NCBI RefSeq assembly: GCF_001905545.1
Contig: NZ_LIPD01000010.1
Location: forward strand, 186,001 to 250,000
Origin: Streptomyces sp. CB02056
GTDB lineage: Bacteria; Actinomycetota; Actinomycetes; Streptomycetales; Streptomycetaceae
Reading direction: 5' to 3'
Length of the DNA: 64,000 bases
This document shows, piece by piece, positions 51,207 through 63,657 of this stretch. Positions within the stretch are counted from its first letter, which is position 1; the number at the start of each line of letters is the position of its first letter. The position numbers were made by a program, and so were the translations under genes. The notes beneath the pieces are model-generated. The model was not told the DNA's origin, made no database searches, and saw only the letters and a list, made by a program, of their open reading frames with translations.

Positions 51207-51247
51207 GGTACGGACGTACGACTGTGATACCCCCGTACGTCCGTACC
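51207..51247. promoter_or_regulatory. 14-bp perfect inverted repeat upstream of PIG-L gene
   Basis: GGTACGGACGTACG (51207-51220) and CGTACGTCCGTACC (51234-51247) are perfect arms with a 13-nt spacer holding GATACC. It ends 39 bp before the PIG-L ATG and 159 bp from the divergent oxidoreductase start. It looks like an operator for a dimeric regulator. Confidence 0.65.
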
Positions 51248-51286
51248 GCCGGACGACCCCGAGCCGCACCGAGAGGAACGAGCAGC

Positions 51287-52027
51287 ATGACCGAGCAGGC
51301 CCCCGAGCCCTTCGAGCCCGTCGACGAGGACTGGCGGACGGCGCTGGCGATCGTCGCCCACCCCGACGACATGGAGTACGGCGGGGCCGCGGCCGTCGCC
51401 CGCTGGACCTCGCAGGGCAAGAAGGTCGTCTACGTGATGGTGACCAGCGGCGAGGCGGGCATCGACACGCTGGACCCGGCCGAGTGCGGTCCGCTGCGCG
51501 AGGCGGAGCAGATCGCCTCGGCGCGGGTGGTCGGCGTCGACACCGTGGAGTTCCTCGGCCACCCGGACGGCGTCGTGGAGTACGGGCTGCCGCTGCGCCG
51601 GGACATCGCCCGGGTGGTGCGCCGGCACCGGCCGGACATCGTGATCACCAGCAACTTCCGGGACACCTACGGCGGGGTGTTCCTCAACCAGGCCGACCAC
51701 GTCGCGGTCGGCCGGGCCACCCTGGACGGGGTCCGGGACGCCGGGAACCGCTGGGTGTTCCGCGAGCTGCTGGCCGAGGGCCACGAGCCGTGGAACGGCG
51801 TGCGGCAGATCTGGGCGGTGGCCTCGCCGGAGGCGAAGCACGCGGTGGACACCACCGGGACCTTCGACCAGGGCGTCGCCTCGCTGGAGGAGCACAAGGC
51901 GTACCTGGCCGGGCTGGGCGGGGCGATGGCGGAGCCGCGGGAGTTCCTGGAGGGCTTCGGCCGGGGTGCGGGCAGCCGGCTGGGGACGCGCTTCGCGGTG
52001 CCGTTCGAGGTGTTCCCGCTGCGTTGA
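51287..52027 (+). CDS. PIG-L family zinc deacetylase
   Basis: 246 aa LmbE-like protein. ALAIVAHPDDMEYGGAAAVA is the zinc-binding AHPDD motif; VMVTSGEAGIDT and REAEQIASARVVGVDTVEFL follow, and NQADHVAVGRATLDGV gives the third ligand region (H of xxDHxxxG). Family members deacetylate N-acetylglucosaminyl compounds, including mycothiol precursors and antibiotics. GAGAGGA precedes the ATG; a longer start would lie in the operator. It stops only 7 nt from the convergent DedA gene. Confidence 0.9.
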   Translation: MTEQAPEPFEPVDEDWRTALAIVAHPDDMEYGGAAAVARWTSQGKKVVYVMVTSGEAGIDTLDPAECGPLREAEQIASARVVGVDTVEFLGHPDGVVEYGLPLRRDIARVVRRHRPDIVITSNFRDTYGGVFLNQADHVAVGRATLDGVRDAGNRWVFRELLAEGHEPWNGVRQIWAVASPEAKHAVDTTGTFDQGVASLEEHKAYLAGLGGAMAEPREFLEGFGRGAGSRLGTRFAVPFEVFPLR

Positions 52028-53067: not shown

Positions 53068-53730
53068 TCAGCGGGCGGACGGCTGTTGCGCGAGGTAGCC
53101 GCGGACCAGCCGCTTGCACTCGGCGATCAGCGCCGGATCGCCGTCCGGGGACTCCCGGAAGGCCAGTTTGAGCACCGCGTCGGCGGCCTCCAGGGCCACC
53201 CGCAGGGTCAGCATGACGGCCGTCGGGTCGCCCGCCCGGAACAGTTCGCCGCCGAGCGCCTGGAGCCGCAGGGCGACGGCGGTGTTGTTGTCCACGCCCG
53301 CGTCCAGCAGGTACCGGTCGTCCCGGACGCCGGTGGGGACGGCCGGTCCGGCCAGGCCGAAGTCCAGCTGGCCGAAGCCCGGCACGGCGCGCTTCATCGC
53401 CACGAACTCCTCCACCGCGAGATCGGTGAAGACGGCGGGGCCGACCGGCGCGGCGGCGGCCAGCCGGGCGTCCAGGCGCTGGAGGTAGTGGTCGAGGTTG
53501 CGGGTGGCGAGCGCCGCCAGCAGGTCCTCCTTGCCGGCGAAGAACTGGTACAGGGTGCCGATCGGCACCTGGGCGCGCTGGGCGACCTCCTTGGTGGTGA
53601 GCGCGGTCGCCCCGACCTCGTCCAGCAGCCCGGCGCAGGCGTCCAGGATGCGGCCGTACCGCTCCAGGCTGCGCTGCTGGACCGGGCGGCGCCGGACCGG
53701 TCCGGGGGCGGGGTGACTCCTGTCGCTCAT
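53068..53730 (-). CDS. TetR-family regulator beside arm 2
   Basis: 220 aa. RYGRILDACAGLLDEVGATA and LTTKEVAQRAQVPIGTLYQF form the HTH (residues 24-66). The C-terminal ligand domain has LLDAGVDNNTAVALRLQALG. It diverges from arm 2 across about 375 bp and is the obvious candidate pathway regulator, though it may act on DUF1918-dedA instead. ATG 53730; a longer start at 53955 crosses the intergenic dyads. Confidence 0.88.
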   Translation of the reverse strand: MSDRSHPAPGPVRRRPVQQRSLERYGRILDACAGLLDEVGATALTTKEVAQRAQVPIGTLYQFFAGKEDLLAALATRNLDHYLQRLDARLAAAAPVGPAVFTDLAVEEFVAMKRAVPGFGQLDFGLAGPAVPTGVRDDRYLLDAGVDNNTAVALRLQALGGELFRAGDPTAVMLTLRVALEAADAVLKLAFRESPDGDPALIAECKRLVRGYLAQQPSAR

Positions 53731-54106
53731 GACCTCACTGTGCCGCATCCGCTGTTGCGGCGGCGAATCACCGGGGCGCGAACGGACCGGAGTTCCCTGT
53801 GGGACGGGAGACGACTGGTGGCCGGAGCTGAACGGCACGGTGGCGGGAAGGTGTCCACGGGTTGGCATTGGTCTTGTCGTGGACGCGAAGACAGGTTCAT
53901 ACTCCTGAGGCGGACTACCTTGCGTGATCAACGCATGCCTCTTCGTGGTGATCACGATTCAGCTGTGGCGGCCGAGGCGCCTGTGACGGACGCTCCGCCG
54001 CCACCCGAGGTCTGGATGACGCCGTGTGCCCCCACTGCCCGCGCCACGTCCCGTGGCGCCGATTCCCTGTGTGTTCCCCGCCGAACGGAAGGAGGGGATC
54101 GGTTCG
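53731..54106. promoter_or_regulatory. TetR/arm-2 divergent control region
   Basis: On the plus strand TTGTCG (53874-53879) and CATACT (53898-53903) are 18 nt apart and could start the arm-2 transcript. Two TGATCA palindromes (53925-53930 and 53949-53954), 24 bp centre to centre and each in a CGTGATCA[A/C]G-like setting, follow as possible operators. GGAAGGAGGGG at 54087-54097 is the ribosome site for GTG 54107. No gene is seen in the gap. Confidence 0.45.
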
Positions 54107-54934
54107 GTGACGCCGTCCTCCGGAGGGTGTGAGGCCCTCGACACCGAGCACCGCCGCCAGTTCCTGGAGTCCGGGTACCTGGTCCTGCCCGGCCTGCTGC
54201 CGGAAGCGCTGCGCGAACGGCTCGCGCCCGAGGTGGACCGGTGGGTCGACGAAGGCCTGCGGGCCCGGTCGATCGCCGCGTGCGCCGACCCCTTACGGCA
54301 CGGACCGCCCCCGCTGCTGGAACTGGAACTGCCCGCCCACGGCGAACTCCTCACCCACCCGCCCCTGTTGCGCACCCTGACCCGCCTGCTCGGGCCGGAC
54401 TTCGTCTTCCACCACCTGCACAGCGACCGCCAGGACCCGGGGATCCCGGGCAAGGCCTGGCACCACGACTGCGAGCCCAACGACCGCTCCGACCCGTCGC
54501 TGCTGATGGTCCACGCGCTGCACTACCTCGGCGGACTGGACGAGAAGGTCGGCAGTCTGGCCGTGCTGCCCGGCTCGCACCTGCGCACCGTCGGCAAGTC
54601 CGCCTACGCCCACCACGGCACCGGCGAACTGCCCGGCGAGGTGGTCATCGACCGGCTGCCGCCCGGCTCCACCGTGCTGCTCAACTCGGCGCTGTTCCAC
54701 ACCCGCCGGCCGGCACCCGAAGGGCCGGGCCGCCCCCGGTACTTCGTCGACGCCTCCTACTGCCAGGTGGGAGCGCGCTGGCGCCCGGTGAAGCCGTACT
54801 GGCGGCAGATGCTCGCCCGGGCCCGCGAACTGGACCTGGCCGACGGCCAGTGGCCCGAGCTGTTCGCGGAGCGGCACTTCACCGAGTACACCGGCAGCGA
54901 ACACGCCCGCACCGAGTACACCGGAACCGTCTGA
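54107..54934 (+). CDS. PhyH-family Fe(II)/2-oxoglutarate dioxygenase, arm 2, with TTA codon
   Basis: 275 aa from GTG 54107. FLESGYLVLPGLLPEALRER opens the PhyH fold; KAWHHDCEPND near residue 119 supplies H-x-D, and LLNSALFHTRRPAPEG near 197 the distal His with the 2-oxoglutarate Arg in RPRYFVDASY. The codon for Leu63 (54293-54295) is TTA, the rare codon that needs the bldA tRNA in streptomycetes. As first gene of the operon this could gate arm 2. It may hydroxylate free or carrier-bound aspartate. Start chosen for the strong GGAGGG; ATG 54026 is unlikely. Confidence 0.85.
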   Translation: MTPSSGGCEALDTEHRRQFLESGYLVLPGLLPEALRERLAPEVDRWVDEGLRARSIAACADPLRHGPPPLLELELPAHGELLTHPPLLRTLTRLLGPDFVFHHLHSDRQDPGIPGKAWHHDCEPNDRSDPSLLMVHALHYLGGLDEKVGSLAVLPGSHLRTVGKSAYAHHGTGELPGEVVIDRLPPGSTVLLNSALFHTRRPAPEGPGRPRYFVDASYCQVGARWRPVKPYWRQMLARARELDLADGQWPELFAERHFTEYTGSEHARTEYTGTV

Positions 54935-54945
54935 GGAGCACTGCC

Positions 54946-55515
54946 GTGGAGATCGTCACAGCCGTCGCCTACCCCGAGGTCCACGACGCCTACCTGCGGG
55001 ACCACCCGGTGGATCGGGCCCACGAGGCGAACAGCAACATGTACGGCGAGGAGAACCTCGACCGTGCCGACCGCATCCCCGGCGGCTGGTGGCGGATCCG
55101 GCTCTCCCGGACGGACGTCCTGGGCATCGTGCTGCCCTGGCACCTGAGCGAGGGCGGGGAGCTCGAACTGGTGCCGCGCTCCGGGCTGACGGTGGCCGAG
55201 GCGGCCGAGCGGGTCCGGGCCGGCGGAGCGGCCTGGACCGCCGCCAACCCGGTCTGCGCGGCGAAGCTGCGGCTGCTGAGGTGGGCCCCGCTCACGCCCG
55301 TCTTCCTCAGCACCGCCCCGGTCGACCACTCCGACTACGGGGACCTCGTGCTCCGGTCGGGACTGATCCACCTCGACGGCCTGCACCGCATGCTGGCCTG
55401 GGAGTTGGCCGGACGGCTGCCCGAGCGGGCGCTGCTGGACGGCTACCTGGTGGGCGACCCGGGAGTGGCCGCCGGCCCCGCCCGGGCGGGCCGGAGGGGG
55501 GACGAGTCGGCGTGA
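54946..55515 (+). CDS. DUF6309-like hypothetical protein
   Basis: 189 aa, recalled as DUF6309 type, known to me only as a biosynthetic-cluster protein. PVDRAHEANSNMYGEENLDR, VLPWHLSEGGELELVPRSGL, and RSGLIHLDGLHRMLAWELAG are the recognisable blocks. His/Asp-rich loops (HEANSN, DGLHRM) suggest a ligand or catalytic site, but no mechanism is known. No PCP or membrane part. GTG with GAGGAGC upstream; its TGA overlaps the NRPS GTG, so the two are coupled. Confidence 0.6.
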   Translation: MEIVTAVAYPEVHDAYLRDHPVDRAHEANSNMYGEENLDRADRIPGGWWRIRLSRTDVLGIVLPWHLSEGGELELVPRSGLTVAEAAERVRAGGAAWTAANPVCAAKLRLLRWAPLTPVFLSTAPVDHSDYGDLVLRSGLIHLDGLHRMLAWELAGRLPERALLDGYLVGDPGVAAGPARAGRRGDESA

Positions 55516-58500
55516 CCTCCGCGACGCAGCACCTCCGGTCCGCGGCCTGCGGCCACCCGGCCGACCCCGCCCACCGGGCCCGCTCGCTGCCCGACCTGCT
55601 CGCCCACCACGCCCGGGCGCACCCCGACCGGCCCGCCCTGGGCGACGGCGTCCGCACCTTCGACTACCGCACGGTCGACACCGCGGCCGACCGGATCGCC
55701 GCCCGGCTGGCCGCCGCCGGCACCCGCCGGGGCGACCGGGTCGCTCTGCTCGGGCCCCGGGACGCCCGGATGCTGGTACTGCTGTACGGCGTGCTGCGCG
55801 CCGGCGCGGCGGCCGTGCTCGCCGATCCGGACTGGTCGGCGGCCGACCTGGCCCGGCGGCTGGCCTCCGTCCGGGTGGCCCGGGTGCTCGCCACCGAGGG
55901 CGGCCTCGGCGGGGAGGTGGTGGACGTCGAGGCGCTGCCGGAGCTGCCCCCGGTGGCCACCGAGGTACGGGGCGAGGACCTCGCGTACCTCTCCTTCACC
56001 TCCGGGTCGAGCGGCGAGCCCAAGGCGGTGGCCGTCACCCACGCCAACGCCGTGCACTACGCCCGGGCCCTGGCCGGGCGGCTCGACCTCACCGAGGCCG
56101 ACGCGCCCCGCGCCGCCCACGTCACCACCCTGGCCGCCGACCTCGGCCACACCGCCTGGCTGCTCGCCCTGGCCACCGGCGGCTCGGTGCACCTCGTGCC
56201 GGACCGCGAGGTACGCGACCCGGAAGCCTTCTGGGCCTCGCTGCGCCGGGCCCGGGTGGACGTGCTGAAGACCACCCCCTCGCACCTGACCGCCCTGCTG
56301 GAGGGCCGCCCGGCCGACACCCCGCCGCTGCACACCGTGCTGCTCGGCGGCGAGGCGCTGCCCCGCCCGCTCGCCGCCGCCCTGCTCGACGGCGGCACCA
56401 CCGCGCGGCTGGCCAACCACTACGGACCGACCGAGACCACCGTCGGCGCCACCTGCCTGCTCGTCACCTCCGCTCGCCAACTGCCCGCCGAGGAGCCGAC
56501 CGTACCGATCGGCACCGCGATCGGCGAGGTGCTGCTGACCGTGGTGGACGGCGACGGCCGGGCGGTGCCGGACGGCTCGGTGGGCGAACTGCTCATCGGT
56601 GGCCGGGGCGTCGCCGCCGGGTACTTCGGCCGGCCGGACGAGACCGCCCGCGGCTTCGTCCGGCGCGACGGCCGACTCGTCTACCGCACAGGCGACCTGT
56701 GCCGACGGCGGCCGGACGGCAGCCTGGTCTTCCTGGGCCGGGTGGACCGCCAGGTCAAGGTCCGCGGCTACCGGGTGGACCTCGCCGAGGTCGAGCGGGC
56801 GATGGACAGCCACCCGGGCGTCGCCCGCTCGGCGGCGCTGCTGCGGGAGACCGCGCTCGGCAACCAACTCATCGGTGTCGTCCGGCTGTTGGACGGCGCG
56901 GACGGGGTCGGGAGCCTGGACGGGGCTGGGAGCCTGGACGGGCTGCGGGCGCACCTGCGGGACCGGCTGCCCGGCTACTCCGTGCCGCAGCCGATCCTGG
57001 TGCTGCCGCGGTTCCCGGTCGGACCGAACGGCAAGCTCGACCGGCAGCGGCTGGCCGAGCTGGCGGCCGAACTGGTCGAGGCCCGGGCCGAGTCGGACGG
57101 AACCGATTCGGACGGAACCGGGTCGGACGGAACCGAACCGGACGACACCGGGGTGAACGGCGGTGCGGGGAGCGGACCGGTCGGGGAGATCGCCCGGTTC
57201 TGGGCGGGAGCCCTGGGCCTGCCCGCCGTCGGGCCGCGCGCCGACGTGCTCGGCCTCGGCGGGGACTCCATCCTCGCCATGCGCACCATCGCCCTCCTGC
57301 GGCGCTCCGGCCTGCGGGTCGCCTACGAGGACTTCTACCGGTACCCGACGGCGGAGGGCCTGGCGGCGGTCGCCGTCCCGGTCGCGCCGTCCGTCCCGGC
57401 CCCGCGCGGCTCCACGAGCGGTCGCCGACTCGCCCCGGCCCAACGGTGGTTGTACCGGCAGCGGACGGTGCGGGACCTGCGGCACTGGAACCAGTCGGTG
57501 CTGCTGCGCTGTCGCACCGCCGTCGACCCGGAGGCGCTCTCGGCGGCCGTCGCGGCCGTCCTGGAACGGCACCCGGCGCTGCGCCGGCCGGTCACCCCGG
57601 ACGGCTGCGGCGAGGTCCGGGCGGTGGCCGAGCTCGACCCGGTCTCCTTCTCCCGGATCCCGCGCGCGGCCGGGGAGATCGCCGACACCGTCGCCGGGGT
57701 CTGCACCGAACTCCACCGCAGCCTCGACCCGTCGGCCGGCCGGCTGCTGCGCGCCCACCTGTTCACCGGCCCGCCCGGCACCGACGACCGGCTCGCGCTG
57801 ATCGCGCACCACCTGGTGGTCGACGGGCTGTCCTGGCGGATCCTGCTGGACGACCTGGCGCACGCGTACCGGGCGGTGCTCGACCGGAAGCCGGTCCACC
57901 TGCCGCCGACGGCGGACTTCTACGCCTGGGCGGCGGTCTCGTCCTCCGTCGCGGCGGAGCCCGCTGCCGGGGACGCCACCGTCAGGGAAGCCGGGGAAGC
58001 CGGGGAAGCCGGGGAGGCCGGAGAGGCCGAGGAGCCCGCCGCGCTCAGCTGGGCGCTCGACCCGGACGCCACCGCCCGGCTGATCGCCCGGCACGGTGCC
58101 GGGGCCGGGCTGGAGGCCGTACTGCTGGCCGCCTTCGCCGAGGCCGTCACCGGTGACGGCGGCCGCCCCCGGCTCGCGGTGGAGGTCGAGACCCACGGCC
58201 GGGACGCGGTCGGCGACCCGGGCGAATTCCTGGACACCGTAGGCTGGTTCACCGCCGTCAAGCACGTCGAGCTGGACGCCGGGGCCCTCCCGGACACCGT
58301 GGCCCGGCGGCTGCGCGAGGCCCCCGTCCGGCCGATGGACGGGCCCGGCGGACGGCCCGCCGTCGGCTTCAACTTCCTCGGCACCTTCCGGCTGCCCGAG
58401 GAGCCCGCGCTGGACTGGACCGTCGCCGCCGAACAGGCCGGCACGGCCCGCTGTACGGGCGGCGACCCGCTGTACGAACTGCGGCTCACCGCACGGGTGG

Positions 58501-59951
58501 TGGAGCAACGGCTGGTCGCCGACCTGGTGTACGGCCGGCCCGGCCTGCCGCACCCCGCCGCCGAGCGGATCACCGGGCGGTTCGCCCGCGCCGTGGCGGC
58601 CGAGGCGCGGGCCGAGGTCGTCGGCCAGGCCGACGCGCGGGCCGACGCCGAGGCGCCGGAGGCCGCACCGCCCGTCCGGGCACCGCTGTCCACCTCCGGC
58701 CAACTGCTGCACCCCGGTGTCGCCCCGACGGCCCGGGCGACGGTGCGCGAACCCGCCCGGGTGCTGCTCACCGGCGCCACCGGCTACCTCGGGCGGCACC
58801 TGCTGGAGGCCTTCCTGGCGCGCGGCGCCGAGGTCACCTGCCTGGTGCGGGCCGCCGACGACGCCGAGGCGCTGAAGCGGCTCGGCACCGGCGCGGCGGG
58901 CACGGTCCGGCCCGCCCGGGCGCTCGCCGGGGACATCGACCGGGACGGCCTCGGCCTCTCCCCGGCCGCACTGGAACACGCCCGGGGCGCCCACCTGGTG
59001 GTGCACGCGGCGGCGGACGTCCGACTGGTGGCCTCACCCGACGAGCTGGAGCGCACCAACCACACGGCGGTGCGCCGACTGCTCGACTGGGTCGGGGAGC
59101 ACGCCCCGGACGCCCGGGTCCACCACGTCTCCACGCTGGCCGTCTCGGGCGGCGTCGACGGCCCGCCGCGCCGCTTCAGCGAGGCGGACCTGGAGATCGG
59201 CCAGCACTTCCGCACCCCGTACGAGCGGACCAAGTACCGGGCCGAACAGGCCGTCCGGGCCTGGGCCGCCCGCGGGCACGCCGCCTACCTGCACCGCAGC
59301 GGCCACATCGCGGCGCACAGCCGGACCGGCGCGTTCCAGGCCAACGCCGGCGACAACCGGATCTACCAGCTGCTCCGCGGCTACCTGCTGGCCGGCGCCG
59401 CGCCGAGCCGGCCGGGCACCGCCTTCGCGTTCTCGTACGTGGACACGGTGGCCGCCGGGATCGCCGCGATCGCCCTCGACCCGTACGCCGCGCCCGGCGC
59501 GTACCACGTGGAGACGCCGCACGCCGTCCCGCACGACGAGCTGGTGCGGTGGCTGGCCGGGCACGGCCACGCCGTACGGCTCACCGACGAGGCGGCCTTC
59601 GCGGCCGCCCTCGCCCGGGCCGAGCGCCGCCACCCGACGGCCGCCCGGGTGGCCGCCGCCTGGGCGGCGCAGGAGGAGCGCCGCGTCCTGGTGGACAGCT
59701 CGTACACCACCGCGGTGCTCGACCGCCTGGGCGTGCGGTTCGCCGCGCCGACCCCGCGGTGGTGGTCGGCCGCACTCACCTGGGCCGCCGAGGCCGGCTA
59801 CCTGCCGCCCGTCGGCCCGATCCCGCTCACCCGTGACGACATCCGTGACGACGTCCGCGACGGCGCCGGTCACGACACCCGTGACGACGTCCGCGACGGC
59901 GCCGGTCACGAGACCCGAGACGACATCCGTGAAGGCAGGACCAACCCGTGA
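55512..59951 (+). CDS. one-module NRPS: A(Asp/Asn)-PCP-E-reductase
   Basis: 1,479 aa. Adenylation domain (25-510): LSFTSGSSGEPKAVAVTH, HYGPTETT, YRTGD, GRVDRQVKVRGYRVDLAEVE, GPNGKLDR. Aligning by hand to GrsA gives the code DLTKLGHVGK, near Asp (DLTKVGHIGK) and Asn (DLTKLGEVGK). PCP (565-630) has LGGDSI. Epimerisation domain (640-1045): HHLVVDGLSWRILLDDL, VEVETHGRD, TVGWFT, VGFNFLG, all key residues intact. Reductase (1083-1440): LLTGATGYLGRHLLEA, HVST, YERTK (Ser/Thr-Tyr-Lys). No condensation domain. Inferred output: D-Asp (or Asn) aldehyde, 3-amino-4-oxobutanoate for Asp. The linkers carry SDGT and GEA repeats, and the tail has RDDVRDGAGH twice (36-nt repeat, 59845-59916). The next gene overlaps by 4 nt (GTGA). 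Confidence 0.9.
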   Translation: MTSATQHLRSAACGHPADPAHRARSLPDLLAHHARAHPDRPALGDGVRTFDYRTVDTAADRIAARLAAAGTRRGDRVALLGPRDARMLVLLYGVLRAGAAAVLADPDWSAADLARRLASVRVARVLATEGGLGGEVVDVEALPELPPVATEVRGEDLAYLSFTSGSSGEPKAVAVTHANAVHYARALAGRLDLTEADAPRAAHVTTLAADLGHTAWLLALATGGSVHLVPDREVRDPEAFWASLRRARVDVLKTTPSHLTALLEGRPADTPPLHTVLLGGEALPRPLAAALLDGGTTARLANHYGPTETTVGATCLLVTSARQLPAEEPTVPIGTAIGEVLLTVVDGDGRAVPDGSVGELLIGGRGVAAGYFGRPDETARGFVRRDGRLVYRTGDLCRRRPDGSLVFLGRVDRQVKVRGYRVDLAEVERAMDSHPGVARSAALLRETALGNQLIGVVRLLDGADGVGSLDGAGSLDGLRAHLRDRLPGYSVPQPILVLPRFPVGPNGKLDRQRLAELAAELVEARAESDGTDSDGTGSDGTEPDDTGVNGGAGSGPVGEIARFWAGALGLPAVGPRADVLGLGGDSILAMRTIALLRRSGLRVAYEDFYRYPTAEGLAAVAVPVAPSVPAPRGSTSGRRLAPAQRWLYRQRTVRDLRHWNQSVLLRCRTAVDPEALSAAVAAVLERHPALRRPVTPDGCGEVRAVAELDPVSFSRIPRAAGEIADTVAGVCTELHRSLDPSAGRLLRAHLFTGPPGTDDRLALIAHHLVVDGLSWRILLDDLAHAYRAVLDRKPVHLPPTADFYAWAAVSSSVAAEPAAGDATVREAGEAGEAGEAGEAEEPAALSWALDPDATARLIARHGAGAGLEAVLLAAFAEAVTGDGGRPRLAVEVETHGRDAVGDPGEFLDTVGWFTAVKHVELDAGALPDTVARRLREAPVRPMDGPGGRPAVGFNFLGTFRLPEEPALDWTVAAEQAGTARCTGGDPLYELRLTARVVEQRLVADLVYGRPGLPHPAAERITGRFARAVAAEARAEVVGQADARADAEAPEAAPPVRAPLSTSGQLLHPGVAPTARATVREPARVLLTGATGYLGRHLLEAFLARGAEVTCLVRAADDAEALKRLGTGAAGTVRPARALAGDIDRDGLGLSPAALEHARGAHLVVHAAADVRLVASPDELERTNHTAVRRLLDWVGEHAPDARVHHVSTLAVSGGVDGPPRRFSEADLEIGQHFRTPYERTKYRAEQAVRAWAARGHAAYLHRSGHIAAHSRTGAFQANAGDNRIYQLLRGYLLAGAAPSRPGTAFAFSYVDTVAAGIAAIALDPYAAPGAYHVETPHAVPHDELVRWLAGHGHAVRLTDEAAFAAALARAERRHPTAARVAAAWAAQEERRVLVDSSYTTAVLDRLGVRFAAPTPRWWSAALTWAAEAGYLPPVGPIPLTRDDIRDDVRDGAGHDTRDDVRDGAGHETRDDIREGRTNP

Positions 59952-61219
59952 AGGCAGGCCCCGTGTCCCAGCTCTCCCCGGCGCTCAAGCAGGCCACCCC
60001 GGTCGTCGCCGTACGCGGCGAAGGACTCCACCTCTACGACGCCGACGGCCGCCGCCACCTCGACTTCACCTCCGGCGTGGGGGTGACCAGCACCGGCCAC
60101 TGTCACCCGAAGGTGGTCGAGGCCGTCCGGGAACAGGCCGGCCGGCTCATCCACGGGCAGTACACCACCGTGCTGCACGACCAGCTCCTCACGCTCACCG
60201 AGCGGCTCGGCGAGGTCCTGCCGTCCGGCCTGGACTCGCTGTTCTACGCCACCGCCGGCACCGAGGCGGTGGAGGCCGCGCTGCGGCTCGCCCGGCACGC
60301 CACCGGACGGCAGAACGTGATCGTCTTCGAGGGCGCGTTCCACGGCCGCACCATGGGCGCGGCCTCGCTCACCACGGCCGGCACCCGGTTCCGGGCCGGC
60401 ATCGGCCCGCTGATGCCCGGGGTCGCGGTGGCGCCCTTCCCGGCCGCGTTCCGGCTCGGGCTGTCCGAGGACGAGGCGGTGGCGCACGCCCTGCGCGGAC
60501 TGGACGAGGTGCTCGCCACCGTCTCCGCGCCCGCCGAGACGGCCGCGATGTTCGTCGAGCCGGTGCTCGGCGAGGGCGGCTACGTCCCGGCCCCGCCCGG
60601 CTTCCTGGCCGGGCTGCGCGAGCGGGCCGACCGGCACGGGATCCTGCTGGTGGTGGACGAGGTGCAGACCGGCTTCGGCCGCACCGGCCGGTTCTGGGCC
60701 CACCAGTACGAAGAAGGGGTGCGCCCCGACGTCCTGATCACCGCCAAGGGCCTGGCCAGCGGCTTCCCGCTGTCCGCGATCGCCGCGCCCGCCGAGCTGA
60801 TGGGCCGCGCCTGGCCCGGCTCGCAGGGCGGCACCTACGGGGGCAACCCGGTGGCCTGCGCCGCCGCGCTGGCGACCCTGGACGTGCTGCGCGAGGAGCG
60901 GCTGGTCGAGAACGCGGCCGAGCAGGGCGCCCGGCTGCTGGCCGGGCTGCGGGCGGTCGCCGCCGAGGCGCCCGGGATCGCCGACGTCCGCGGGCTCGGG
61001 CTGATGGCCGCCAGCGAGTTCTGCCGCCCGGACGGCACCCCGGACCCGGAGGCGGCCCGGCGCGCCCAGCAGGCCGCGGCCGAGCACGGCCTGTTGCTGT
61101 TGCTGTGCGGGATCCACCTCAACACGGTCCGGATGATCCCCGCGCTGGTGGTCACGGCCGAACAGATCGACGAGGGCCTGGAACTGTGGGCGAAGGCCGT
61201 CGCGGCCGGCGGCCGGTAG
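59948..61219 (+). CDS. class-III PLP aminotransferase, arm 2
   Basis: 423 aa, 4-aminobutyrate/ornithine aminotransferase type. FTSGVGVTSTGHCHPKVVEA, YATAGTEAVEAALRLARHAT, EGAFHGRTMGA, VVDEVQTGFGRTG (PLP Asp) and ITAKGLASGFPLSA (PLP Lys near residue 268). Such enzymes aminate omega-aldehydes, so the aldehyde made by the NRPS reductase is a natural substrate; the product from D-Asp would be (R)-3,4-diaminobutanoate (inference). GTG overlaps the NRPS stop. Confidence 0.9.
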   Translation: MKAGPVSQLSPALKQATPVVAVRGEGLHLYDADGRRHLDFTSGVGVTSTGHCHPKVVEAVREQAGRLIHGQYTTVLHDQLLTLTERLGEVLPSGLDSLFYATAGTEAVEAALRLARHATGRQNVIVFEGAFHGRTMGAASLTTAGTRFRAGIGPLMPGVAVAPFPAAFRLGLSEDEAVAHALRGLDEVLATVSAPAETAAMFVEPVLGEGGYVPAPPGFLAGLRERADRHGILLVVDEVQTGFGRTGRFWAHQYEEGVRPDVLITAKGLASGFPLSAIAAPAELMGRAWPGSQGGTYGGNPVACAAALATLDVLREERLVENAAEQGARLLAGLRAVAAEAPGIADVRGLGLMAASEFCRPDGTPDPEAARRAQQAAAEHGLLLLLCGIHLNTVRMIPALVVTAEQIDEGLELWAKAVAAGGR

Positions 61220-61231
61220 GGAGGAGAGGAC

Positions 61232-62095
61232 ATGGACGCGGTGACCGAAATCGGCTGGAGCAGCCTGGAGTTGGACGCCCGGCGGGAGCTCTGGTCGCTC
61301 CCGCTGGAGGAACGGGAGCGGCGGCTGCTCTGGGCCGACGCGCGGGCCGGGCAGTGGGGCGCGGGTGAGCAGGTGCGGACCAGGCTGCGGGAGTTCGTCC
61401 GGAACGCCGCCGACTCGGTGGGCATCACCCATGTGAGCGGCCTGGTGGACGCGACCCGCCCGGAACAGGAGATCACCGAGGTGCTCTCCTTCCTGCTGGG
61501 CGACTTCGGCCGGATCGTCCCGCAGAACGGGCGCGGCGACCTCACCTCGGTGCTGCACGACCAGGACGGCGACGGAAACACCGAGCTCGGCTTCCACTGC
61601 GACACCTGCGACCTGCTGGTCCTGCTCTGCCTGCGGCCCGCCTTCGACGGCGGCGGGCTGACCAAGCTGGCGAGCGCCCGGCACGTGCACGACCTGATCG
61701 AGCGGGAGCGGCCGGACGCGCTGGCCACGCTCCGCGAGGAGTGGACCTTCGAGCGCAGCGGCCGGGCCGGTCCGCAGGTGGTGGTCACCCCGATCCTGTA
61801 CGACCGGAAGGACGGGACGATCGGGTGCTACTACCAGACCCGCACCGTCCGCTCCTCTCCCGACCGCGGTGGACCGGAATTGACGGACCGTCAGTGGGAG
61901 GCGCTCGGCGTGCTGGACGAGGTGCTCTACCGGCCGGAGATCGCCTTCGGGCTGCCGATGGCCGCCGGTGACCTGCTGATCATCCGCAACAGCCGTGTGC
62001 TGCACGGGCGTTCGCCGTTCATCGACGAGCCGGGCCCGTACGCCCGGCGGATGCTGCGGGTCTGGGTGAACGAGGGGGAGGAGTGGACGCCGTGA
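61232..62095 (+). CDS. TauD/TfdA-type Fe(II)/2-oxoglutarate dioxygenase
   Basis: 287 aa. LGFHCDTCDLLVLLCLRPAF near residue 120 provides H-x-D, and IIRNSRVLHGRSPF with PYARRMLRVWV provides the distal His (near 257) and the 2-oxoglutarate Arg. GGGLTKLASARHVHDLI between them is typical of TauD. It resembles the clavaminate/gamma-butyrobetaine hydroxylase group in layout. It would hydroxylate or desaturate the diamino acid or its derivative. GGGAGGAGAGGAC precedes the ATG. Confidence 0.87.
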   Translation: MDAVTEIGWSSLELDARRELWSLPLEERERRLLWADARAGQWGAGEQVRTRLREFVRNAADSVGITHVSGLVDATRPEQEITEVLSFLLGDFGRIVPQNGRGDLTSVLHDQDGDGNTELGFHCDTCDLLVLLCLRPAFDGGGLTKLASARHVHDLIERERPDALATLREEWTFERSGRAGPQVVVTPILYDRKDGTIGCYYQTRTVRSSPDRGGPELTDRQWEALGVLDEVLYRPEIAFGLPMAAGDLLIIRNSRVLHGRSPFIDEPGPYARRMLRVWVNEGEEWTP

Positions 62096-62907
62096 CCGCT
62101 GGAGCCGAGAGCACGGGAGCCGTGACCGCCGGAGCCGGCACCGGAGGCGCGCCCGCACCGCACGGGCGGGTGGCGATCGTCACCGGCGGGGGCAGCGGCC
62201 TCGGCCGGGCCTCGGCACTGGCCCTGCTGGCGGCCGGCTGGACCGTGGCCGTCGCCGGGCGGCGCAAGGACGCGCTGGAGGAGACCGCCGCCCTGGCCGG
62301 GCCCGGGGCCGCCCGGGTGCTGCCCGTCCCGACGGACATCCGCAGCCCGGAGGAGGTCGCCCGGCTCTTCGACACCGTCCTCGACCGCTACGGCCGGGTG
62401 GACCTGCTGTTCAACAACGCGGGCGCCGCCGCCCCGCGCCGGCCGATCACCGAGACCCCGTTCGAGGACTGGAACCGGGTGCTGGACACCATCGTCACCG
62501 GCGGCTTCCTCTGCGCCCGCGAGGCCTTCCGGGTGATGAGCACCCAGACCCCGCAGGGCGGGCGGATCATCAACAACGGCGCGCCCTCGGCCTACGTGCC
62601 GCGCCCCAACTCCATCGCGTACACCGCCGCCAAGCACGCCGTGCTCGGCCTCACCAAGGTGCTCGCCCTGGACGGCCGGGCGTACGGCATCTCCTGCGGG
62701 CAGATCGACGTCGGCAACGTCACCCCGGTGGACGGCGGCCCGCAGCCGGCCGCGATGCAGGCCGACCGGACCATGGCCGTCGAGGCGACCATCCCGGTGG
62801 ACCGCTTCACCGAGGCCCTGGTGCTGATGGCCTCGCAGCCGCCGGACACCACCATCCAGTCCCTGGTCGTGCTGCCGACCACCATGCCGTTCGTCGGAAG
62901 GGGCTGA
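62092..62907 (+). CDS. short-chain dehydrogenase/reductase, arm 2
   Basis: 271 aa. VAIVTGGGSGLGRASALALL binds NAD(P)(H); NNAGAAAP follows; the catalytic set is Ser in NNGAPSAYVP and Tyr-Lys in IAYTAAKHAVLG. Residues 200-240 form a longer lid with CGQIDVGNVTPVDGGPQ. It probably oxidises a hydroxyl set by one of the dioxygenases, or reduces the aldehyde. GTG 62092 overlaps the previous TGA and has GGGGGAGGAG 9 nt upstream; GTG 62083 is too close to it. Confidence 0.87.
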   Translation: MTAGAESTGAVTAGAGTGGAPAPHGRVAIVTGGGSGLGRASALALLAAGWTVAVAGRRKDALEETAALAGPGAARVLPVPTDIRSPEEVARLFDTVLDRYGRVDLLFNNAGAAAPRRPITETPFEDWNRVLDTIVTGGFLCAREAFRVMSTQTPQGGRIINNGAPSAYVPRPNSIAYTAAKHAVLGLTKVLALDGRAYGISCGQIDVGNVTPVDGGPQPAAMQADRTMAVEATIPVDRFTEALVLMASQPPDTTIQSLVVLPTTMPFVGRG

Positions 62908-62910
62908 GCC

Positions 62911-63657
62911 GTGCTGGTCAGCGCACGCTCCTTCGCGGAGTACCGGGCGATGTTCGCGCTCACCGAACGCGACCTGGCGCAGCGCGTCCTGGACTGCCCG
63001 GCCGGCGCCGCGAGCTTCGTGGCGGAGGCCGGGCGGCGCGGCATCGACGCCGTCGCCGTCGACCGCCAGTACGCCGAGCACCGCGAGGAGCTGGGCCTGC
63101 TGGTGGAGCGGGAGACCGGGTTCAAGCGCGAGCGGCTGGTGAAGGAGACGGCCGACCACGTGTGGTCCTGGTACACCGACGCGGACGACATGATCCGCCA
63201 GTGGACCGCCAACGCCCGGGACTTCCGCGCCGACATCGCCGCCCGCCCGGACCGCTACGTGGCCGGCTCGCTGCCCGAACTCCCCTTCGCCGACGACTCC
63301 TTCGACCTGGTGCTCAGCTCGCACCTGCTGTTCTCGTACGGCAACCGGCTGGACGGGGACTTCCACCGGGCGGCCCTGCTGGAGCTCGCCCGGGTGGCAC
63401 GGCGCGAGGTGCGGGTGTTCCCGCTGATGGTGTACGACACGCGGGAGCGCTACCCCGGGCTGGAGCCGCTGCGCGAGGAACTGGCGGACCTCGGCGTCCC
63501 CAGCCGGGTGGAGCGGGTGGCCTACGAGTTCCGGCCGGGGGAGAACGAGATGCTGGTGCTCGCCACGGCGGGCTACCGGACGCCGGCCCGGACCGCGGCG
63601 GGCGCCGCCGTGGCCGAGGACCCGGTGCGGTGGCGGCACCGGGAGGCCGGGGACTGA
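62911..63657 (+). CDS. class I SAM-dependent methyltransferase-like protein
   Basis: 248 aa. RVLDCPAGAASFVAEAGRRG is motif I, AVAVDRQYAE the motif II acidic end, and ELPFADDSFDLVLSSHLLFS motifs IV-V. A helical insert with WSWYTDADDMIRQW sits between. C-terminal strands REVRVFPLMV and NEMLVLATAGYR match the fold. It may N- or O-methylate the product; repeated N-methylation of an amine is conceivable. GTG 62911 is 3 nt from the SDR stop. Last gene of arm 2. Confidence 0.8.
   Translation: MLVSARSFAEYRAMFALTERDLAQRVLDCPAGAASFVAEAGRRGIDAVAVDRQYAEHREELGLLVERETGFKRERLVKETADHVWSWYTDADDMIRQWTANARDFRADIAARPDRYVAGSLPELPFADDSFDLVLSSHLLFSYGNRLDGDFHRAALLELARVARREVRVFPLMVYDTRERYPGLEPLREELADLGVPSRVERVAYEFRPGENEMLVLATAGYRTPARTAAGAAVAEDPVRWRHREAGD

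Follow-up and report, generated by a model that had tools for sequence, protein, structure and literature searches.

Streptomyces sp. CB02056 carries, within the 64,000-nucleotide stretch analysed here (contig NZ_LIPD01000010.1, positions 186,001 to 250,000; hereafter the window), a gene for a single-module nonribosomal peptide synthetase (NRPS) in which adenylation (A), peptidyl carrier protein (PCP), epimerisation (E) and reductase (R) domains follow one another. An earlier, sequence-only reading had presented this enzyme as stand-alone. It is, however, one gene of an ordered and conserved operon, all on the plus strand, which runs from a PhyH-type oxygenase over a DUF6309 protein, the NRPS, a class-III aminotransferase, a TauD-type oxygenase and a short-chain dehydrogenase/reductase (SDR) to a methyltransferase. 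As argued below, the NRPS and the aminotransferase may together convert L-aspartate to (R)-3,4-diaminobutanoate. The genes of the locus are as follows:

53068..53955, minus strand: TetR-family regulator, divergent from the operon (Pfam TetR_N and TetR_C_22)
54026..54934, plus strand: PhyH-type Fe(II)/2-oxoglutarate (2OG) dioxygenase (Pfam PhyH, 26.2 bits; cut-off 22)
54946..55515, plus strand: DUF6309 protein (PF19828; Pfam, 293 bits), overlapping the NRPS start by 4 nt
55512..59951, plus strand: single-module A-PCP-E-R NRPS of 1479 aa, Asp code DLTKLGHVGK
59948..61219, plus strand: class-III aminotransferase, gamma-aminobutyrate (GABA) transaminase-like (Aminotran_3, 397 bits), overlapping the NRPS stop by 4 nt
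61232..62095, plus strand: TauD-type Fe(II)/2OG oxygenase (Pfam TauD, 75.7 bits; nearest solved relatives TtnM and FrbJ)
62083..62907, plus strand: SDR with Ser-Tyr-Lys (adh_short, 143 bits)
62911..63657, plus strand: S-adenosylmethionine-dependent methyltransferase (Methyltransf_11, 29 bits; cut-off 21.2), absent from some relatives

Domains and substrate code of the NRPS

The NRPS reading frame starts with GTG, preceded by a purine-rich GGAGGGGGG stretch. Its product matches the Pfam models AMP-binding (PF00501) at residues 31-372 (229 bits; cut-off 29.9), PP-binding (PF00550) at 560-619 (35.4 bits; cut-off 20.8) and NAD_binding_4 (PF07993) at 1086-1315 (116.8 bits; cut-off 20.1), together with a Condensation superfamily match that is restricted to 640-813 (profile positions 7-185 of 456). 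The A domain lies narrowly above the TIGR01733 cut-off (319.1 versus 317.4), and a solved TycA chain aligns to residues 15-964. The solved R domains related to the reductase end are led by MxaA (E 1.9e-21), with AusA at E 1.8e-17. Altogether 21 NRPS orthologs were found, of which 20 could be read for motifs and code, the one in genome G046 being cut at a contig edge (G and L numbers are our own labels for genomes and loci). All 20 keep the carrier motif LGGDS[IL], including the phosphopantetheine serine, as well as TGATGY[LVI]G (TGATGYLG in the window), the Ser/Thr (ST) and YxxxK of the R domain. The same 20 keep HHxxxDGxSW, VETHGR, TVGWFT and [GA]FNFLG, which we take to be E-type motifs. The four domains with intact motifs that had been read from the letters are therefore borne out by profiles, solved relatives and orthologs alike.

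Judged by sequence, residues 640-1045 are an E domain. Eleven solved relatives of this region were found at E <= 0.001, ten of which are chains of PvdL, bacitracin synthase 3, TycA, TycB and GrsA (E 3.3e-21 or better), while the eleventh, 5u89, is weak (E 1.2e-5). That these chains represent E domains is in part presumed, for bacitracin synthase 3 in particular. PvdL allows a comparison inside one protein, its E-motif domain reaching 106.8 bits and the C-type (condensation) domain that follows 7.7 bits. The assignment of 640-1045 as a C domain, named in the sequence-only reading as the outcome that would undo it, is rejected on the solved relatives, the E motifs and the contrast within PvdL. 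A search of the genome with PF00668 gave 84 matches, the sole one in the window being this E domain (243429-243950 of the contig, i.e. window 57429-57950), so that the window indeed contains no other condensation-type domain.

Among models of characterised enzymes, alpha-aminoadipate reductase Lys2 (TIGR03443) gives 196.8 bits, far under its cut-off of 1030.1, and the MxcG model 296.3 bits, under 2300. An isolated or decaying gene was also considered and is rejected on the motifs, intact in 20 of 20, and on the ordered operon. In two comparisons the dN/dS ratios of the four domains stay under 1 (0.29-0.62), but dS is unreliable here, given the GC-rich third codon positions. The C-terminal end (59830-59951) is a low-complexity tail built of DDxRDGAGH-like repeats, which is not shared by three close relatives.

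Alignment reproduces the A-domain code that had been read by hand, DLTKLGHVGK. Thirteen of the 20 orthologs share it, while DLTKIGHVGK, DLTKLGHIGK and DLTKIGHIGK occur twice each and DLTKVGHIGK once (L093), so that the pattern DLTK[LIV]GH[VI]GK, with His at 322, holds throughout. We take DLTKVGHIGK to be an Asp code and DLTKLGEVGK an Asn code. Because His322 is invariant, the two variable positions take Asp letters in relatives and one relative has the exact Asp code, Asp would be favoured over Asn as the substrate. The earlier call of an Asp/Asn-type code accordingly stands in its Asp half, the Asn alternative being disfavoured by the ortholog codes.

Distribution of the operon and its aminotransferase

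A search of 70 Kitasatospora genomes found the R domain in 14, and because so many carry the ortholog, the NRPS is not a chance occurrence. Gene order is identical in 13 of the 14 (the window and 12 others), the fourteenth, G046, being split over two contigs. The carriers include K. xanthocidica JCM 4862 (G069) and K. aureofaciens ATCC 10762 (G003), others being filed under Streptomyces names. Outside the genus the operon is variable and the NRPS was found in seven genomes, namely G360 and six of a second actinobacterial family (G707, G740, G507, G787, G801 and G923). A family-wide sample gave 15 carriers in 394 genomes, which recovered the genus again and added only G360 (L066). Among these outsiders, G787 has the complete operon order including the aminotransferase, L066 has a different methyltransferase at the methyltransferase position, and L105 shows no methyltransferase within its 16 kb.

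The best solved relatives of the aminotransferase are PuuE (E 5e-91) and E. coli GabT (E 7e-89). Alignment to 1sf2 places counterparts of GabT R141, E211, K268 and R398 in all 15 linked copies aligned. The gene lies beside the NRPS in all 14 genus carriers, G360 and G787, and at a strict limit it was found in 15 of the 70 genus genomes, i.e. the 14 NRPS carriers and G005. In fact, an ortholog is present in all 21 genomes with the NRPS. The six of the second family have it at 69-79 % identity, with the next paralog at most 46 %. It is linked only in G787; in G740 it shares a contig with the NRPS at a distance of 4 Mb, and in G707, G507, G801 and G923 the two genes lie on separate contigs (69-73 % in these five, next paralogs at most 45 %). 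In a joint sample of 80 second-family genomes, the NRPS occurred in 4, the aminotransferase in 21 and both in 4 (hypergeometric P = 0.0038, uncorrected for kinship). At the three places where an unlinked copy was read, an aldehyde dehydrogenase gene adjoins it; the one tested (L097) best matches succinate-semialdehyde dehydrogenase models, under their cut-offs. This would make the aminotransferase a putative enzyme of GABA catabolism that the pathway has either recruited or draws on as well.

Two genes lie beside the operon in most NRPS-bearing genomes of the genus. The TetR regulator adjoins it in 11 of the 14 NRPS-bearing genomes, and a PIG-L deacetylase-like gene (51224-52027) lies upstream in 11 of the 14 as well as beside NRPS-less remnants. 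Of such NRPS-less loci, L076 (9013-10858; S. novaecaesareae NRRL B-1267) has a partial PhyH gene that continues into the final 47 aminotransferase codons, and Streptomyces sp. CBMA156 (L074/L080) keeps DUF6309 and TauD, with no match to PhyH, NRPS, aminotransferase, SDR or methyltransferase in the stretch. Either natural loss or assembly error could have produced both.

Three cassette types around PhyH and DUF6309

DUF6309 (PF19828) was found in 25 of the 394 genomes sampled from the family, in 7 of 394 sampled from the class and in 10 of 240 from the second family (overlapping samples), and its surroundings fall into three types, all of which include PhyH. Type I, to which the window belongs, is PhyH-DUF6309-NRPS-(aminotransferase)-TauD-SDR-(methyltransferase). 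Type II (10 loci, also on two Streptomyces linear plasmids) combines PhyH-DUF6309-SDR with an enzyme like HemL, i.e. glutamate 1-semialdehyde (GSA) aminomutase. The two of these ten that were tested exceed the NF000818 cut-off of 398 (416.5 and 411.2) and lie under that of TIGR00713 (387.1 and 385.8 versus 527.3), with guanitoxin transaminase GntE close, and the remaining eight were assigned by similarity; of the four GabT residues, all ten keep only the pyridoxal phosphate lysine. Type III is a six-gene cassette, PhyH-DUF6309-TauD-SDR-SbnA-SbnB, of one Kitasatospora genome (G001; L069 9118-14127). Its SbnA and SbnB both pass their equivalog cut-offs (365.2 versus 349.95 and 393.4 versus 326.9), its TauD is 60 % identical to that of the operon, and the genome gave neither an NRPS, at the limit of the search, nor an ortholog of the aminotransferase. 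L069 looks like an undescribed pathway that uses L-2,3-diaminopropionate (L-Dap).

When the PhyH, DUF6309 and SDR sequences of 31 loci are concatenated and a tree is built with FastTree, the ten type II loci group together (support 1.000), and L069 pairs with the type I locus L104 inside type I (local support 0.995). Because L069 nests within type I, the NRPS and the aminotransferase appear, as far as the tree can tell, to have been exchanged for the Dap-making SbnA/SbnB pair.

The conserved proteins of the cassettes show the following. PhyH keeps HxD in 31 of 31 aligned sequences and the distal His and 2OG Arg in 30 of 31 (one gap), and its comparison with solved structures gave nothing significant (best E 0.078). 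DUF6309 has an invariant HxDGLHR in the alignment of 31, which recalls the DGxHR that we take to characterise the ParB/sulfiredoxin/SbnI group. Its AlphaFold2 model is of fair confidence (mean predicted local distance difference test score, pLDDT, 86.6); Foldseek gave no match at 0.001 (best E 0.12), and VIA-align 2 gave Z 4.9 for Srx, 4.5 for ParB and 2.7 for SbnI, all under the tool's caution level of 8, so that any resemblance of the modelled fold to ParB/sulfiredoxin is weak. As for an SbnI-like kinase, the structural match to SbnI (Z 2.7) is likewise weak. TauD is present at all 21 NRPS loci. It keeps HxD, distal His and Arg in 21 of 21 copies. Its neighbours TtnM, FrbJ, TmpA and gamma-butyrobetaine hydroxylase suggest a small acidic or GABA-like substrate, and its model also resembles amino-acid hydroxylases including AsnO, VioC and OrfP; because confidence in the model is low (pLDDT 66.6; residues 97-127 and 254-287 under 50), these matches point to no more than a small-molecule Fe/2OG hydroxylase. 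The methyltransferase keeps the D, C and G of LDCPxG in 18 of 18 aligned copies.

Some further variation was seen among the cassettes. The SDR of type II (L061-L065, L067, L068, L070-L072) has Phe for the catalytic Tyr in 10 of 10 (PDSxAFTAAK), whereas types I and III have Tyr in 21 of 21. The plasmid-borne type II cassettes are L115 (6195-9688; Streptomyces microflavus, plasmid typed mobilizable) and L116 (7669-10607; Streptomyces sp. SAT1), the latter with no SDR match in its cassette and with DUF6309 annotated as two overlapping pieces. Lone DUF6309 genes, without PhyH, SDR or aminotransferase, occur in the second family (L092, L094, L095, L096, L112 and L114), hinting at a separate use; L112 and L114 have similar surroundings, with a putative Maf-like gene upstream of both.

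Proposed pathway, its rivals and the nearest known systems

In the proposed pathway, the A domain would adenylate L-Asp via its alpha-carboxyl and load it on the PCP, the E domain would convert the L-Asp thioester to the D-Asp thioester, and the R domain would use NAD(P)H to release D-aspartate 1-semialdehyde, i.e. (R)-3-amino-4-oxobutanoate or 3-amino-succinic semialdehyde. Because reduction of the alpha-carboxyl leaves HOOC-CH2-CH(NH2)-CHO, with the beta-carboxylate placed as in succinic semialdehyde, this aldehyde would suit a GABA-transaminase-like enzyme run in reverse, which would aminate it to (R)-3,4-diaminobutanoate (3-amino-GABA), a vicinal diamino acid. That the two enzymes together make a diamine is also suggested by L069, which has the L-Dap-making SbnA/SbnB in place of both enzymes. 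The diamine would then be taken up by the tail, consisting of the TauD and PhyH oxygenases, the SDR, the methyltransferase and DUF6309. Because the operon has neither a ligase nor a C domain, a small modified amino acid is to be expected rather than a peptide. We infer every reaction, the stereochemistry and the action of the tail on the diamine from sequence, and consider it evenly balanced whether the NRPS and the aminotransferase do turn L-Asp into (R)-3,4-diaminobutanoate and feed the tail. The D-aspartyl aldehyde of the earlier reading stays the best-supported candidate for the enzyme's product, but because the next gene of the operon encodes a GABA-transaminase-like enzyme, it probably serves as a precursor of a vicinal diamino acid and not as the final product.

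The presence of an E domain in a one-residue enzyme would find its explanation in the handedness of the diamine. According to the CORN rule, L-Dap viewed from H reads acid arm, CH2NH2 and N clockwise. The diamine derived from D-Asp reads CH2COOH, CH2NH2 and N clockwise, in the sense of L-Dap, whereas that derived from L-Asp has the opposite sense. The simplest common denominator of the three cassette types would be a tail that consumes a vicinal diamino acid. For type I this would be (R)-3,4-diaminobutanoate, for type III L-Dap and for type II possibly 4,5-diaminopentanoate. More tentatively, and with less than even odds, PhyH and DUF6309 may form the core of an undescribed vicinal-diamino-acid system with three exchangeable supply modules (the A-T-E-R NRPS with the GABA-transaminase-like enzyme, SbnA/SbnB, and the HemL-like enzyme giving 4,5-diaminopentanoate or a relative), in which the E domain would give the Asp-derived diamine the handedness of L-Dap.

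Several observations weigh against this proposal. The stereochemical match is one bit of evidence, with even odds of being an accident, and type II fits less well because from natural L-GSA a HemL-like enzyme would yield the other handedness. The exchange for SbnA/SbnB was seen in a single genome. The R domain falls under the curated cut-off of the thioester reductase domain model TIGR01746 (E 5e-47, 160.8 bits versus 213.35), and its best solved relative, MxaA, is presumably a four-electron reductase. The aminotransferase scores under the cut-off of TIGR00700, the equivalog model for GABA transaminase (364.1 versus 506.65), and under that of every other NCBIfam model among the 25 matches listed. 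It occurs without the NRPS in G005 and is absent from five of the six second-family NRPS loci read (L090, L091, L093, L105 and L113). Its co-occurrence with the NRPS in that family is suggestive and not proof, because the ortholog also turns up in 17 of the 76 sampled genomes that lack the NRPS, and the second-family enzyme may serve plain GABA catabolism.

Following from MxaA, the R domain could reduce twice, giving (R)-3-amino-4-hydroxybutanoate (of the D-beta-homoserine type), with the aminotransferase acting elsewhere in the pathway, as its unlinked position in five relatives would allow. This is unlikely, since the co-inherited GABA-transaminase-like enzyme requires an aldehyde or ketone and the R domain of AusA, which we take to release an aldehyde, matches as well. 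The five second-family loci without the gene in the stretch read would equally suit an aspartyl aldehyde (or a cyclised or hydrated form, further hydroxylated) that itself serves as end product or warhead and does not undergo transamination at all; the ortholog in every NRPS genome and the diamine-making pair swapped in at L069 make this rather unlikely. Quite unlikely, too, is that TauD first hydroxylates PCP-bound Asp, so that beta-hydroxy-aspartyl aldehyde is released: TauD accompanies every NRPS and its model resembles amino-acid hydroxylases, but its nearest solved relatives are TtnM and FrbJ, and its retention in the NRPS-less L069 points to a substrate that is probably a free small molecule. 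It is very unlikely that the A domain takes Asn (or both), giving D-asparaginal, as the window code differs from the presumed Asn code at one position and precisely that position is the invariant His, the two variable positions taking the Asp letters in relatives. Hardly credible, finally, is a module of a larger assembly line whose R domain releases a peptide aldehyde, for which 83 condensation-superfamily matches outside the window could supply the partner, given that window and conserved operon are without a C domain, that the module starts with A and that E precedes R.

If the proposed conversion of L-Asp to the diamine is right, the NRPS is an A-T-E-R enzyme dedicated to a single residue, which turns L-Asp directly into an alpha-amino aldehyde of D configuration and, in concert with the aminotransferase, into (R)-3,4-diaminobutanoate, a chiral 3-amino-GABA. 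It would also give entry to an uncharacterised actinobacterial PhyH-DUF6309-SDR pathway, in which the natural swap of supply modules predicts the substrates of DUF6309 and PhyH. The Creative Commons-licensed part of PubMed Central yielded nothing on-topic for DUF6309, an A-T-E-R NRPS or a diaminobutanoate route, which is weak evidence of novelty, and the enzyme seems to be a variant of a known NRPS architecture within an undescribed pathway.

Its parts have counterparts in several systems. Like Lys2 and other A-T-R enzymes, it has one adenylating module, a carrier and a terminal NAD(P)H thioester reductase that would release a free amino-acid aldehyde. Lys2, however, lacks an E domain and acts on an L-amino acid at its side-chain carboxyl, whereas here the alpha-carboxyl of Asp would be reduced and an E domain stands between PCP and R. 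The A-PCP-E order is that of the initiation modules TycA and GrsA, but TycA presumably hands its D-Phe to a C domain, while in the present enzyme a reductase is fused after E and no C partner is nearby. IvoA, a single-module enzyme that inverts L-Trp to D-Trp, likewise handles one residue and racemises it with a C-type domain, but releases the free D-acid instead of ending in a reductase. In myxochelin formation (MxcG/MxcL) an R-domain aldehyde is also aminated by a class-III aminotransferase, although MxcG releases a full siderophore, in place of the single amino acid and GABA-transaminase-like enzyme predicted here. The C5 haem pathway (glutamyl-tRNA reductase and GSA aminomutase) similarly activates an amino acid, reduces it to an alpha-amino aldehyde in which the side-chain carboxylate is retained, and passes this on to a class-III pyridoxal phosphate enzyme. 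It works with Glu-tRNA, L-Glu and an aminomutase, where the present system would use Asp on a carrier protein, an epimerisation step and a GABA-transaminase-like enzyme. The SbnA/SbnB route to L-Dap, finally, supplies a vicinal diamino acid too and occupies the place of the NRPS and the aminotransferase in L069, through unrelated chemistry and with a product that is one carbon shorter.

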